Below are positions 7,041-52,652 of a stretch of DNA of 64,000 nt, piece after piece. Source of the DNA: Flavobacterium petrolei (GTDB taxonomy: Bacteria; Bacteroidota; Bacteroidia; Flavobacteriales; Flavobacteriaceae); assembly GCF_003314435.2 (NCBI RefSeq), contig NZ_QNVY02000001.1:372001-436000 (forward strand). The letters run 5' to 3'. Numbering within the stretch: position 1 is the first letter of the stretch; each line of letters opens with the position of its first letter. The translations under genes and the position numbers were made by a program. The notes beneath the pieces are model-generated. The model saw only the letters and a list, made by a program, of their open reading frames with translations. It was not told the origin of the DNA and made no database searches.

Positions 7041-8630
7041 ATGATGAATAGTACATTTTTGATTGTGATGCTGTTGACCTTCATTAGTTGTAAAAAAGAA
7101 GAACTAAAAAGTGAGGTAATCTTGAAAGAAGAGATTGCAAAACCTCATGTGCAACCGGAAGGAAAACCAACCACTATGGACTCCACTTTAGTACTTTCGT
7201 TCCGCAACAAAGTACTTACAGATTTTTACACGTCTACGAATTTCAGGACAGTTTGGCAATCCGAAGAAAAGAGAAAAATAATTTTAAGAGAACTTCTCAA
7301 ATCAGATGAAGAAGGATTAATCCCCGAAGATTACAACGTAAAAACGTTATTTGATTTCGAAAAAAAAGCAGCCTCTCTAGATTCTGTAGATTTGGCAAAA
7401 TATGATATTTTACTGACTTCCAGTTTACAAAAATACATCTCACATCTTACTAACGGAAGACTAAATCCTCGAAAATTATATAAGAACTGGGATTTGAAAC
7501 CAAACGAAATAGATCTAAATACAACAGTCGCCCAATTACTTCAAACCGACTCCTTGGCTTATAAAATAGAGCAATTGAAACCCAATCACCTTATTTACAA
7601 AAGATTAAAAAAAGCACTTCAGCAAATTAATTCTTTTCCAAAAGACAACTTTAAATCCATAAAATTTACAAAAATAATAACTCCGAATGATACCAATCCT
7701 TCTTTAATCGACATCAAGAAACGATTAATTTATTGGAAAGAATTGCAACCTAAAGATAGTCTTACTACTATTTATGACGAAGAAACGGTTAATGCCTTAA
7801 AAAAATTCCAAAGTCGGCACGGTTTAGCCGCTGATGCAAAAATTGGAGCCGGAACCATTGCTTCCCTTAATTTTTCTAAAACCCAACGCACACAACAAAT
7901 ACTGGCTAATCTGGAACGCTGGAAATGGTATCCGAAACAAATGGGAAAGGAATATATTATCATCAACATTCCAGATTATAAGTTGTCGCTGGTAAACAAT
8001 AATGATACGTTGAGAACACACCGAGTAATTGTAGGAAGAGCTAAAAGAAAAACACCAGTGCTGAGTTCTAAATTAACACAAGTCGTTTTTAATCCAACCT
8101 GGACGGTTCCGCCAACCATCCTGAGGGAAGATGTAATCCCTGCTATTTTAAGAAGTAGAAGCTACTTAACGCAATCAAATATTAAAGTTTACGATAGTAA
8201 TGGAAGAATTGTAAGTCCTTACGAATGGCAATTATCTCAGGCCAAAACGTATCGATATGTACAAAGTCCGGGTACTTTCAATTCGTTGGGCATGGTGAAA
8301 ATCATTTTTCCAAACCGTTTCTCCGTTTATTTACACGATACGAATCACAGGGATTATTTTGACAAAATAGATCGTTCATTAAGTTCTGGCTGCGTCAGAG
8401 TAGACAATCCATTGGAATTAACAGAATATATCCTAAACGACGGAGTCAATTGGAACCTGGAAAATATCACAGAAACTTTACAGAATGAGAGAACAAAATT
8501 TGTAAAAATCAAAAAAGAAATAGCTTTTCATCTACTATATTGGACCGCTTGGAGCGAGAACAACAAATTGATTTTCAGAGATGATATTTACAACCTTGAC
8601 GCAAATTTGTACGATAAATTACGAAATTGA
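7041..8630 (+). CDS. L,D-transpeptidase, YcbB/LdtD type lipoprotein
   Basis: Cross-links peptidoglycan stem peptides (3-3 bonds) or attaches proteins to them, in the periplasm. At 529 residues it has the long YcbB-type layout. A lipoprotein signal has lipobox FISC (Cys17). A scaffold region comes next, then a peptidoglycan-binding repeat near residues 235-278 (DEETVNALKKFQSRHGL). The YkuD catalytic domain runs from about 305 to 470, with HDTNHRDYF and the nucleophile Cys451 in SSGCVRV. The start could also be the second Met (7044). Its 3' end overlaps the convergent second transpeptidase gene by 12 bases. Confidence 0.9.
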   Translation: MMNSTFLIVMLLTFISCKKEELKSEVILKEEIAKPHVQPEGKPTTMDSTLVLSFRNKVLTDFYTSTNFRTVWQSEEKRKIILRELLKSDEEGLIPEDYNVKTLFDFEKKAASLDSVDLAKYDILLTSSLQKYISHLTNGRLNPRKLYKNWDLKPNEIDLNTTVAQLLQTDSLAYKIEQLKPNHLIYKRLKKALQQINSFPKDNFKSIKFTKIITPNDTNPSLIDIKKRLIYWKELQPKDSLTTIYDEETVNALKKFQSRHGLAADAKIGAGTIASLNFSKTQRTQQILANLERWKWYPKQMGKEYIIINIPDYKLSLVNNNDTLRTHRVIVGRAKRKTPVLSSKLTQVVFNPTWTVPPTILREDVIPAILRSRSYLTQSNIKVYDSNGRIVSPYEWQLSQAKTYRYVQSPGTFNSLGMVKIIFPNRFSVYLHDTNHRDYFDKIDRSLSSGCVRVDNPLELTEYILNDGVNWNLENITETLQNERTKFVKIKKEIAFHLLYWTAWSENNKLIFRDDIYNLDANLYDKLRN

Positions 8631-9341
8631 TTTAGCTCCAAATACAGAAGCTCTCGAAGGATGATAAATAAAGAAACACGATTTGTCTTTGATTGTGCTG
8701 ATAATCTCTTTAGATAATTCAGCAGGAACAGCAGGACAGCCTTGACTTCTTCCTAACCTATGGTTATTTTTAATAAATGAATTGGAAACATAATCTGCTG
8801 CGTGCATCACTACACCTCTTGCTCTTGCATTATCATTTACTCCTTTTTCTAAACCGTCTAAACGAAGTGACATTCCGTGTTTACCATTATAAATTTCACC
8901 TGTAGCGTAGAACCCTAAGCTACTTTTATAAGACTCTGAAGCATTAGAAAAATTAGAAGCGTATTCTTCACCAGTATTTCTTCCGTGGGCAACCAGAGAG
9001 TGAAACAGGACTTCACCAGTCATCAAATCAATTACCCAAAGTCTTTTGGTATTAGAAGACAAACTAAAGTCGATTAAGGTTAAAATATCTTTTTTGATCA
9101 ATCCTTTATCTTTCAAGGAATAATACCCTTTCAAAGCAACAGCAAAGCTTTCCAATTTTGGCAAAGCAAATTTGTCAGAATGTAAATGATTGTAGGCTAT
9201 TTCAATTTTAGTCTCAACACTAGTTTCTAACGCCTTAGCATAAATTACTGGTTTAACATTATTTGGTTCAGAGAAACTTATTTTACTTGGAGATAATGAA
9301 GCAAGCATAAACAAAACAGTAGGAAGTATCGTATAAATCAT
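8619..9341 (-). CDS. murein L,D-transpeptidase catalytic domain family protein (YkuD_2 type)
   Basis: A 240-residue exported protein with N-terminal signal or anchor (MIYTILPTVLFMLASL). It contains the catalytic-domain signature VMHAADYVS followed by LGRSQGCPAVP with the probable nucleophile Cys202, which marks the smaller murein L,D-transpeptidase family. Related E. coli YkuD-domain enzymes attach Braun lipoprotein or make 3-3 cross-links; which reaction this one performs is not visible. It has its own promoter at 9377-9405. It is convergent with the YcbB-type enzyme at 7041 and overlaps it by 12 bases, so the two 3' ends are mutually antisense. Confidence 0.85.
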   Translation of the reverse strand: MIYTILPTVLFMLASLSPSKISFSEPNNVKPVIYAKALETSVETKIEIAYNHLHSDKFALPKLESFAVALKGYYSLKDKGLIKKDILTLIDFSLSSNTKRLWVIDLMTGEVLFHSLVAHGRNTGEEYASNFSNASESYKSSLGFYATGEIYNGKHGMSLRLDGLEKGVNDNARARGVVMHAADYVSNSFIKNNHRLGRSQGCPAVPAELSKEIISTIKDKSCFFIYHPSRASVFGAKSIS

Positions 9342-44909: not shown

Positions 44910-45170
44910 ATGAAAAAAATGAAAAAAGCACTTTTAGGATTAGCATTTATTGCAACTTTAATGACTTCTTGCAAAAAAGAAACAAAAGACGAAGTAAAAG
45001 AGGCTACCGAAGCCGTTGGCAATGAAATGGAAGATGCTATCGATACAGCAGCTGTAAAAGTTGATGCTGCAGCTGATTCCACTAAGGTTAAAGCAGGAAA
45101 AGTTCTTGAAAAAGGAGCGAAAAAAATGGATGAAGCCGCTGAAAAGTTGAAAGAAGCCGCAAAAAAATAA
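44910..45170 (+). CDS. small helical lipoprotein, Lys-terminated
   Basis: 86 residues (the second Met at 44919 is an equally good start). Lipoprotein signal with lipobox LMTSC and lysines after the Cys. The mature part of about 62 residues is almost pure Ala/Lys/Glu/Asp without Pro or aromatics (DEVKEATEAVGNEMEDAI, GAKKMDEAAEKLKEAAKK), so it should be one continuous alpha helix or coiled coil. The C-terminus is ...EAAKK. Short helical lipoproteins ending in lysine recall Braun lipoprotein, and a second such protein is encoded at 52244. That parallel is inference. Confidence 0.8.
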   Translation: MKKMKKALLGLAFIATLMTSCKKETKDEVKEATEAVGNEMEDAIDTAAVKVDAAADSTKVKAGKVLEKGAKKMDEAAEKLKEAAKK

Positions 45171-52198: not shown

Positions 52199-52206
52199 TA
52201 TCTTTG
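52199..52206 (+). promoter_or_regulatory. promoter -7 box of the heptad lipoprotein gene
   Basis: TATCTTTG, exact consensus, preceded by more than 60 bases of almost pure A/T, which suggests a strong UP-element-like promoter. Confidence 0.65.
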
Positions 52207-52243
52207 CCACGAATTAATAATTAACCTTTTATATTAAATTAAG

Positions 52244-52468
52244 ATGAAAAAAGTATTTTTAAGTTTAGCTGCTGTTGCTGTATTAACTGTTGTATCATGT
52301 AAAAAAGCTGACGCTCCTGCTGAGGACGCTGCAACTACTGTTGATTCTGCTGCTATGGTAGTTGATTCTGCTGCTGCTGTTGTTGACTCTGCTGCTGTAG
52401 TTGTTGATTCTGCTGCTGCTGTTGCTACTGATGCTGCTGAAGTTGCTACTGAAGCTGCAAAAAAATAA
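52244..52468 (+). CDS. small lipoprotein made of heptad repeats
   Basis: 74 residues. Signal with lipobox VVSC, then CKKADAPAEDAATT and six consecutive heptads: VDSAAMV, VDSAAAV, VDSAAVV, VDSAAAV, ATDAAEV, ATEAAKK. Such a pattern gives a coiled-coil helix with a small-residue core. The mature length (about 56 residues), N-terminal lipid and C-terminal Lys match the plan of E. coli Braun lipoprotein, although the sequence is not similar. The strong promoter and immediate terminator suggest an abundant protein. A role as peptidoglycan tether is inference. Confidence 0.8.
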   Translation: MKKVFLSLAAVAVLTVVSCKKADAPAEDAATTVDSAAMVVDSAAAVVDSAAVVVDSAAAVATDAAEVATEAAKK

Positions 52469-52493: not shown

Positions 52494-52525
52494 AAAGCCA
52501 TCCGCTCTGCGAGATGGCTTTTTTA
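52494..52525 (+). terminator. terminator of the heptad lipoprotein gene
   Basis: Stem AAAGCCATC (52494-52502) / GATGGCTTT (52513-52521) followed by T's, 26 bases after the stop codon. Confidence 0.85.
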
Positions 52526-52571: not shown

Positions 52572-52615
52572 AAAAAGAAGAGCGTCTTGGCAATTACCAA
52601 GACGCTCTTCTTTTT
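52572..52615. terminator. strong bidirectional hairpin
   Basis: Perfect 19-base stem: 52572-52590 pairs with 52597-52615, loop CAATTA, with AAAAAG at the left edge and CTTTTT at the right. It can end transcription in both directions, including that of the YegP-like gene on the minus strand. Confidence 0.85.
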
Positions 52616-52628
52616 GTCGATTTAAGTG

Positions 52629-52652
52629 AAAAAAAAAAAAAAAAAAAAAAAA
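52629..52652. repeat. 24-base poly(A) tract
   Basis: An uninterrupted run of 24 A's one base beyond the stop codon of the minus-strand YegP-like gene, where it would be transcribed as a U run. By far the longest homopolymer in the window; its exact length may be a sequencing artefact. Confidence 0.9.

Follow-up and report, generated by a model that had tools for sequence, protein, structure and literature searches.

A short gene in the window, by which we mean the whole 64,000-nucleotide stretch of the Flavobacterium petrolei genome (3.74 Mb) that was analysed, encodes a lipoprotein of the PG1828 family that is probably abundant, periplasm-facing and O-glycosylated at several sites; its mature chain would form a brush beneath the outer membrane and its polar last residue would protect the tail. 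The protein would be Lpp-like at most in size, anchoring and abundance. The gene, its family, its codon bias and its pattern of conservation are direct observations of the analysis.

The protein begins MKKVFLSLAAVAVLTVVSC, and its mature chain of 56 aa, Cys19 included, ends in AAKK, as had been read from the sequence alone. The lipobox Cys named in that reading is also present: the signal peptide ends VVSC at Cys19, which is conserved in the alignment. The six perfect repeats it described proved to be only four VDSAA heptads (TVDSAAM VVDSAAA VVDSAAV VVDSAAA), followed by two degenerate units; the seven-residue register runs from residue 32 to residue 73, and VDSAA is common to only four of the units. 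In an alignment of 44 rows, the window included, the invariant positions were M1-A9, A12, L14, V17, S18, C19 and K20. The reading frame and its repeats are not accidental, because the gene is conserved in the genus and lies downstream of an S46 peptidase in most of the named loci. By this peptidase the nearest named relative is Flavobacterium psychrolimnae (98.6% identity), other near relatives being F. sinopsychrotolerans and F. limicola. The features are collected in Table 1.

Table 1. Positions of the features within the window.
Feature	Position	Strand	Remarks
L,D-transpeptidase-family gene	7041-8630	+	Scaffold, PG-binding and YkuD domains
L,D-transpeptidase-family gene	8619-9341	-	YkuD_2 domain
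Second short lipoprotein	44910..45170	+	86 aa, CKK...KEAAKK; two D(S/T) motifs 11 residues apart
-7 box TATCTTTG (TAnnTTTG)	52199..52206	+	45 nt before ATG
Gene-specific conserved leader CGAATTAATAATTAACCTTT, 5' untranslated region	52210..52229	+	between -7 box and ATG
PG1828-family lipoprotein gene	52244..52468	+	74 aa, mature 56 aa; NF050142 profile, synteny, codon bias
Lipoprotein signal peptide and lipidated Cys19	52244..52300	+	near-invariant in aligned genus orthologues
Four VDSAA heptads with DSA motifs	52337..52420	+	predicted sites Ser35, Ser42, Ser49, Ser56
Degenerate repeats VATDAAE VATEAAK and terminal Lys	52421..52465	+	
Terminator-like hairpin AAAGCCATC...GATGGCTTT	52494-52521, T-run to 52525	+	

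No Pfam model matched the window protein at E <= 1. It was recognised by the NCBIfam profile NF050142 (PG1828 family) with 53.2 bits over residues 1-58, the cut-off being 50 (52.9 bits in the genome search), and the same profile matched all 44 rows of the alignment, window included, at E <= 0.001. Membership of the Lpp/OprI alanine-zipper families (NF040598, PF04728) was rejected; NF040598 gave 13.6 bits against a cut-off of 43, and PF04728 matched none of the 100 relatives searched while it did match the E. coli control, which bears out the earlier statement that no Lpp homologue was evident. Within the genus, 130 of 150 genomes matched the window protein at E <= 0.01, some of these matches being partial or in other proteins; across the phylum, with at most 15 candidates scored per genome, at least 81 of 395 genomes matched NF050142 at E <= 1e-5 and at least 21 exceeded the cut-off. 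The profile is not fully specific: of the 14 well-known genomes that served as its control, Bacillus subtilis and Bacteroides ihuae gave a match, and one of these two matches exceeded the cut-off. We know of no established function for the family. PG1828 itself is described as a triacylated lipoprotein of P. gingivalis and a strong cell activator (PMC11225709, PMC10126205, PMC8012810, PMC6706054), and Lpp-like proteins are reported to be restricted to a subset of the Gammaproteobacteria (PMC8263019). The window protein shares with the PG1828 family the signal peptide with a lipobox Cys and an above-cut-off score; the Flavobacterium members bear arrays of D(S/T) motifs, whereas one genus (g59), whose family matches are weaker, is without them.

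Codon usage was scored with a table made from 29 ribosomal-cluster genes of the window's genome. The lipoprotein gene reached an index of 0.892; the maximum was 0.812 among 350 background genes and 0.816 among the 29 ribosomal-cluster genes. Simulated genes encoding the same protein with ribosomal codon frequencies had a mean of 0.701 +/- 0.051, and none of 5000 attained the observed value; the signal-peptide part alone, which lies outside the repeats, gave 0.872. The bias is kept in the relatives, with a median of 0.905 over 77 loci (weights from the window's genome) and the lipoprotein gene outscoring the S46 gene beside it in all 49 pairs. Codon bias of this strength suggests that the lipoprotein is probably among the most strongly expressed proteins of the cell.

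The exact -7 box and the AT-rich region upstream of it, both noted earlier, are present; the box is of the TAnnTTTG form, which we take to be the Bacteroidota promoter type, and its distance to the ATG is 44-46 nt in all but one of the 76 upstream regions compared (the window and 75 loci). Among control genes, such a box was found anywhere within 110 nt in 98 of 364. The leader that follows is near-invariant in the orthologues printed and better conserved than the mature protein. A search of the genome returned one exact copy of it and three further matches, each with three mismatches; the idea that the leader is shared by highly expressed genes was rejected, as the exact copy is single and a reversed-pattern control gave five matches against the three. 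A terminator had been placed 26 nt after the stop, and a hairpin does start there; the pattern scan gave a minus-strand reading only, and the T-run on the plus strand was judged by eye. Just downstream of the gene, at 52572-52652, there is also a 20-pair hairpin with a T-run (minus-strand score), and nearby a run of 24 A.

For the mature part, 85 and 72 unique proteins from two genome sets were pooled to give 137 unique orthologues from the genus. Three loci without a pattern match stand outside the 137; one is cut by a contig end, and the other two each encode a short lipoprotein that has a single D(S/T) motif, the last residue being K in one and Q in the other. Five ORFs were excluded from the extracted lipoprotein families A and B. 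After its lipoprotein signal, the window protein carries four DSA motifs, one in each VDSAA repeat. These conform to the Bacteroidota O-glycosylation motif D(S/T)(A/I/L/V/M/T) (PMC8729774, PMC12871550), which was identified by mutagenesis as the site of O-glycosylation in B. fragilis and is also reported from T. forsythia and P. gingivalis (PMC8729774). Sites with this motif are described as being in general close to full occupancy, and Glu in place of Asp as not tolerated in B. fragilis, with rare exceptions in other species (PMC12871550). F. johnsoniae is listed among the species with a characterised O-glycoproteome (PMC10897501). The orthologue from F. johnsoniae strain CI04 (L262) has five D(S/T) sites, most of which would lie on a single long tryptic peptide. 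The window protein thus resembles the known substrates in bearing the same exact motif, four times, in an extracytoplasmic lipoprotein; it is unusual among them in that the predicted sites make up a large share of the chain.

Every one of the 137 orthologues has at least one D[ST][AILVMT] motif, 124 have at least two and 117 at least three, 13 having one only. The 514 motifs compare with 69.6 +/- 7.8 in composition shuffles, which ignore repeat duplication, a process that inflates motif counts. S or T follows 78% of all Asp residues (676) and 11% of all Glu residues (613), a preference that fits the reported need for Asp (PMC12871550). All 72 unique proteins of the second genome set carry the motif, and the DNA patterns used for that scan lay in the signal peptide. 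The density is 7.6 motifs per 100 aa; a sample of 20 lipoprotein-like ORFs from the window's genome, among them the two in the window, gave 0.21. Orthologues were also compared with their nearest neighbours in 95 of 104 pairs, the nine pairs under 60% identity having been dropped. In these alignments, which the motifs themselves help to anchor, the Asp of the motif had changed in 23 of 732 cases (3%), 14 of them to Glu; the S/T had changed in 71 of 732 (10%), and 53 of these were exchanges between S and T that keep the hydroxyl. Outside the motif, Asp had changed in 56 of 217 cases (26%) and S/T in 208 of 570 (36%).

This selective retention bears on a further possibility, namely that the mature part does little itself: the promoter, leader and signal peptide would yield a lipid anchor or signal at high expression, and the tail would need only to be soluble and stable. 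That the signal peptide and leader are better conserved than the mature part would agree with this, but the retention of D(S/T) within that part, with exchange between S and T, would not, and we consider this reading highly improbable.

Among the same orthologues the spacing between D(S/T) sites (n=387) is most commonly seven residues (279), followed by five (41) and eight (39). Pro occurs in the mature part beyond +10 in 95 of the 137, and between the first and the last site in 32 orthologues with three or more sites; Pro-rich orthologues retain their motif arrays, as in ADTTAAPADTTAAP. The heptad coil of the earlier reading is thus not kept among the orthologues: spacing varies and Pro is widespread. 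The D(S/T) motif is the constant of the mature part, and it is the heptad spacing and the helix-friendly sequence that vary. These data also weigh on the view that the heptads build a rod, an oligomeric coiled-coil spacer with no covalent link, in which the DSA motif is incidental to the helix. A structure prediction gave a single helix for residues 29-73 (mean pLDDT 65.0, low confidence), and a long helix of this kind in the window species would fit a rod as well, as would the heptad spacing there and in close relatives and the predominance of seven overall; yet a spacing of five or eight in 80 of the 387 cases, the Pro residues, and an Asp before S/T that is so seldom exchanged, though polar positions of a coil would permit it, make such a rod very unlikely. 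If the predicted helix is real, the Ser sites would recur every seven residues and lie near one side, so that glycans and helix could coexist.

The array is not found everywhere. In g59, seven loci (L158-L164) have EEAAPA repeats with no D(S/T) at all, and all seven proteins end in K. On this basis the D(S/T) array would not be universal in the family, and the terminal Lys may matter. Of the 20 other genera sampled, 18 had at least two D(S/T)x motifs (the search profile favours such counts), one had a single motif and g59 had none. Glycosylation of PG1828-family proteins appeared in no title or opening of an abstract among the literature matches listed, from which subscription journals are mostly missing.

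The sequence-only reading had proposed an analogue of Braun lipoprotein that may tether the outer membrane to peptidoglycan. In such a tether an L,D-transpeptidase would join the side chain of the C-terminal Lys to the diaminopimelate of the wall. The mature part of Lpp is 58 aa long, and the window protein, like Lpp and OprI, is a short lipoprotein with heptads, a C-terminal Lys and a probable high abundance. In the genus the last residue is K in 114 of the 137 orthologues, E in 12, H in 9, Q in 1 and N in 1; it is never Ala or hydrophobic, as it is in 148 of 373 ORFs sampled from the window's genome, and no other of the last ten positions varies so little (0.89 bits). Among the same 373 ORFs, 87 (23.3%) end in K and 23 in KK, so a terminal Lys alone is weak evidence; pure background is nevertheless an unlikely origin for it (83% against 23%, in relatives that are not independent).

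Loss of the Lys in close homologues had been named beforehand as one of the observations that would speak against the tether, and it is seen: an orthologue from F. glaciei, 92% identical over the protein, ends AAKNN, and E, H, Q or N stands in place of K in 23 of the 137. On an S46 tree of 50 loci, from which six rows had been dropped for a stop (as in F. psychrolimnae) or for being too short, the state of the terminal residue changes at least 5 times. Among 190 close comparisons it had changed in 22 (12%), a frequency similar to that of Ala (13%) or Val (14%) and nearly four times that of the motif Asp. Outside the genus, copies were extracted from 32 loci in 20 of the genera that matched the family, a sample chosen not at random but for rank and fragment length; every extracted copy ends in K in 12 of these genera and none does in the other 8, where the ends are E, Q, N, H, L or M. 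The genus, then, keeps a polar terminal residue, preferably Lys, with no requirement for an amine.

Of the proposed analogy, size, lipid anchor, codon bias and the want of a surface-export signal stand; the tether itself is not supported as the conserved function, because close orthologues lose the Lys, with 5 or more changes of state over the S46 tree, although in the window species a tether may still occur. Lpp and OprI differ from the window protein in that it falls below their profile cut-off and that its relatives vary in heptads, helix and terminal Lys; the continuous heptad coiled coil of Lpp is plausible in the window species only and is not kept among the orthologues. A lipoprotein linking outer membrane and peptidoglycan covalently in Bacteroidota was not found in the titles and openings of abstracts covered, nor in the passages of PMC8263019 that were covered.

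A second short lipoprotein of similar make-up (CKK...AAKK), 7 kb from the first, had been overlooked in the sequence-only reading. It too ends in K in 30 of 36 proteins, as a tether would allow; in 26 genomes from which both lipoproteins were extracted, however, K ends both in 16, one in 8 and neither in 2, the last being contrary to a tether. Folded from its own sequence alone it was predicted to be helical (pLDDT 70.1, low confidence). A high codon index for this gene was rejected, the value being 0.66. In this set of 36 proteins, successive D(S/T) sites stand 11 residues apart in 36 of 38 cases, and in several genomes of the genus the gene adjoins the first within a few kb, sometimes as tandem copies. 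Two further observations were made. Several genomes of the genus have long frames, of about 1,900 aa, with stretches like the VDSAA repeats (for example G096:C1:39142-39276 and G088:C11:398738-398893). In one family of the phylum, f3 (L142, L145, L150, L176), PG1828-like lipoproteins stand in tandem, two or three copies together; they carry D(S/T) arrays and end in residues other than Lys.

With regard to the enzymes, the two L,D-transpeptidases reported earlier for the window were both recovered by domain search. They lie about 43 kb from the lipoprotein gene, and within the window a genomic link was rejected at that distance. The whole genome holds three PF03734 (YkuD) proteins (E <= 0.001), all with a Scaffold domain, presumably the mark of LdtD-type enzymes, and two YkuD_2 proteins. 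In E. coli, Lpp is reported to be attached by LdtA/B/C, while 3-3 cross-links are made by LdtD and presumably LdtE (PMC8263019). Where Lpp has an attaching enzyme of the LdtA/B/C type, the PF03734 proteins found here are all Scaffold-type instead; the presence of three YkuD and two YkuD_2 proteins speaks for a tether, the Scaffold type of the three YkuD proteins against it. Two residues past the catalytic Cys there is an Asn in the L156 Scaffold protein (SHGCIN) and an Ala in the window's YkuD_2 protein (SQGCPA). Most enzymes of the DpaA-like group, which detach Lpp and are also present in Bacteroidetes, are described as having the same substitution (PMC8263019). Such residues would leave room for links between protein and wall and prove none. 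Ten OmpA-domain proteins are encoded in the genome, and these alternative tethers could hold the wall without covalent bonds. Taking the evidence on the terminal residue, the two lipoproteins and the enzymes together, we regard the Lpp-like tether as unlikely. A combined form seems quite unlikely. In it the lipoprotein would be a glycan-studded strut, and in most lineages a Scaffold-type YkuD or a YkuD_2 enzyme would join its Lys to peptidoglycan; the second lipoprotein would act as its partner, and DpaA-like enzymes such as the L156 and window YkuD_2 proteins would release it. We know of no covalent connection of outer membrane and cell wall in Bacteroidota, and this one, if true, would be the first.

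The side of the membrane was approached through the lipoprotein export signals K(D/E)2, QA(D/E)2 and S(D/E)2 (PMC5080379). None of the three follows the Cys in any of the 137 orthologues, and a surface lipoprotein exported by such a signal was rejected; the window protein and its orthologues differ in this from the LES-bearing surface lipoproteins, which have the export signal after the Cys. In P. gingivalis, periplasmic and inner-membrane proteins are reported to be glycosylated in preference to the abundant proteins of the surface (PMC8729774).

We therefore return to the reading that we prefer, in which a short PG1828-family lipoprotein would receive its lipid at Cys19 and be carried to the outer membrane, where it would face the periplasm. 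The general O-glycosylation system would place one glycan on the Ser of each VDSAA repeat, at four sites, and the resulting lipoglycoprotein, small and mucin-like, would make up a dense hydrophilic brush or spacer beneath the outer membrane. The chain may be a single Ala-rich helix in the window species and is probably Pro-rich and extended in many relatives; because of these relatives the fold would not be the conserved feature. Tail-specific proteases prefer non-polar ends, and a polar last residue, which in the genus is K, E, H, Q or N, may serve mainly to keep the Ala-rich tail from being read as a degradation signal; the copies outside the genus that end in Leu or Met are at odds with this explanation.

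The case carries a warning, that a protein seen in one genome to have heptads and a terminal Lys need not be an Lpp, and it offers a concrete test of whether those Bacteroidota that lack Lpp have a functional counterpart. The function of the Bacteroidota O-glycosylation system is unclear according to a review (PMC12871550). If the preferred reading is true, this phylum-wide system would gain a major substrate to test, and one of the most abundant envelope proteins of the genus, perhaps of much of the phylum, would be a tiny lipoglycoprotein rich in glycan sites.
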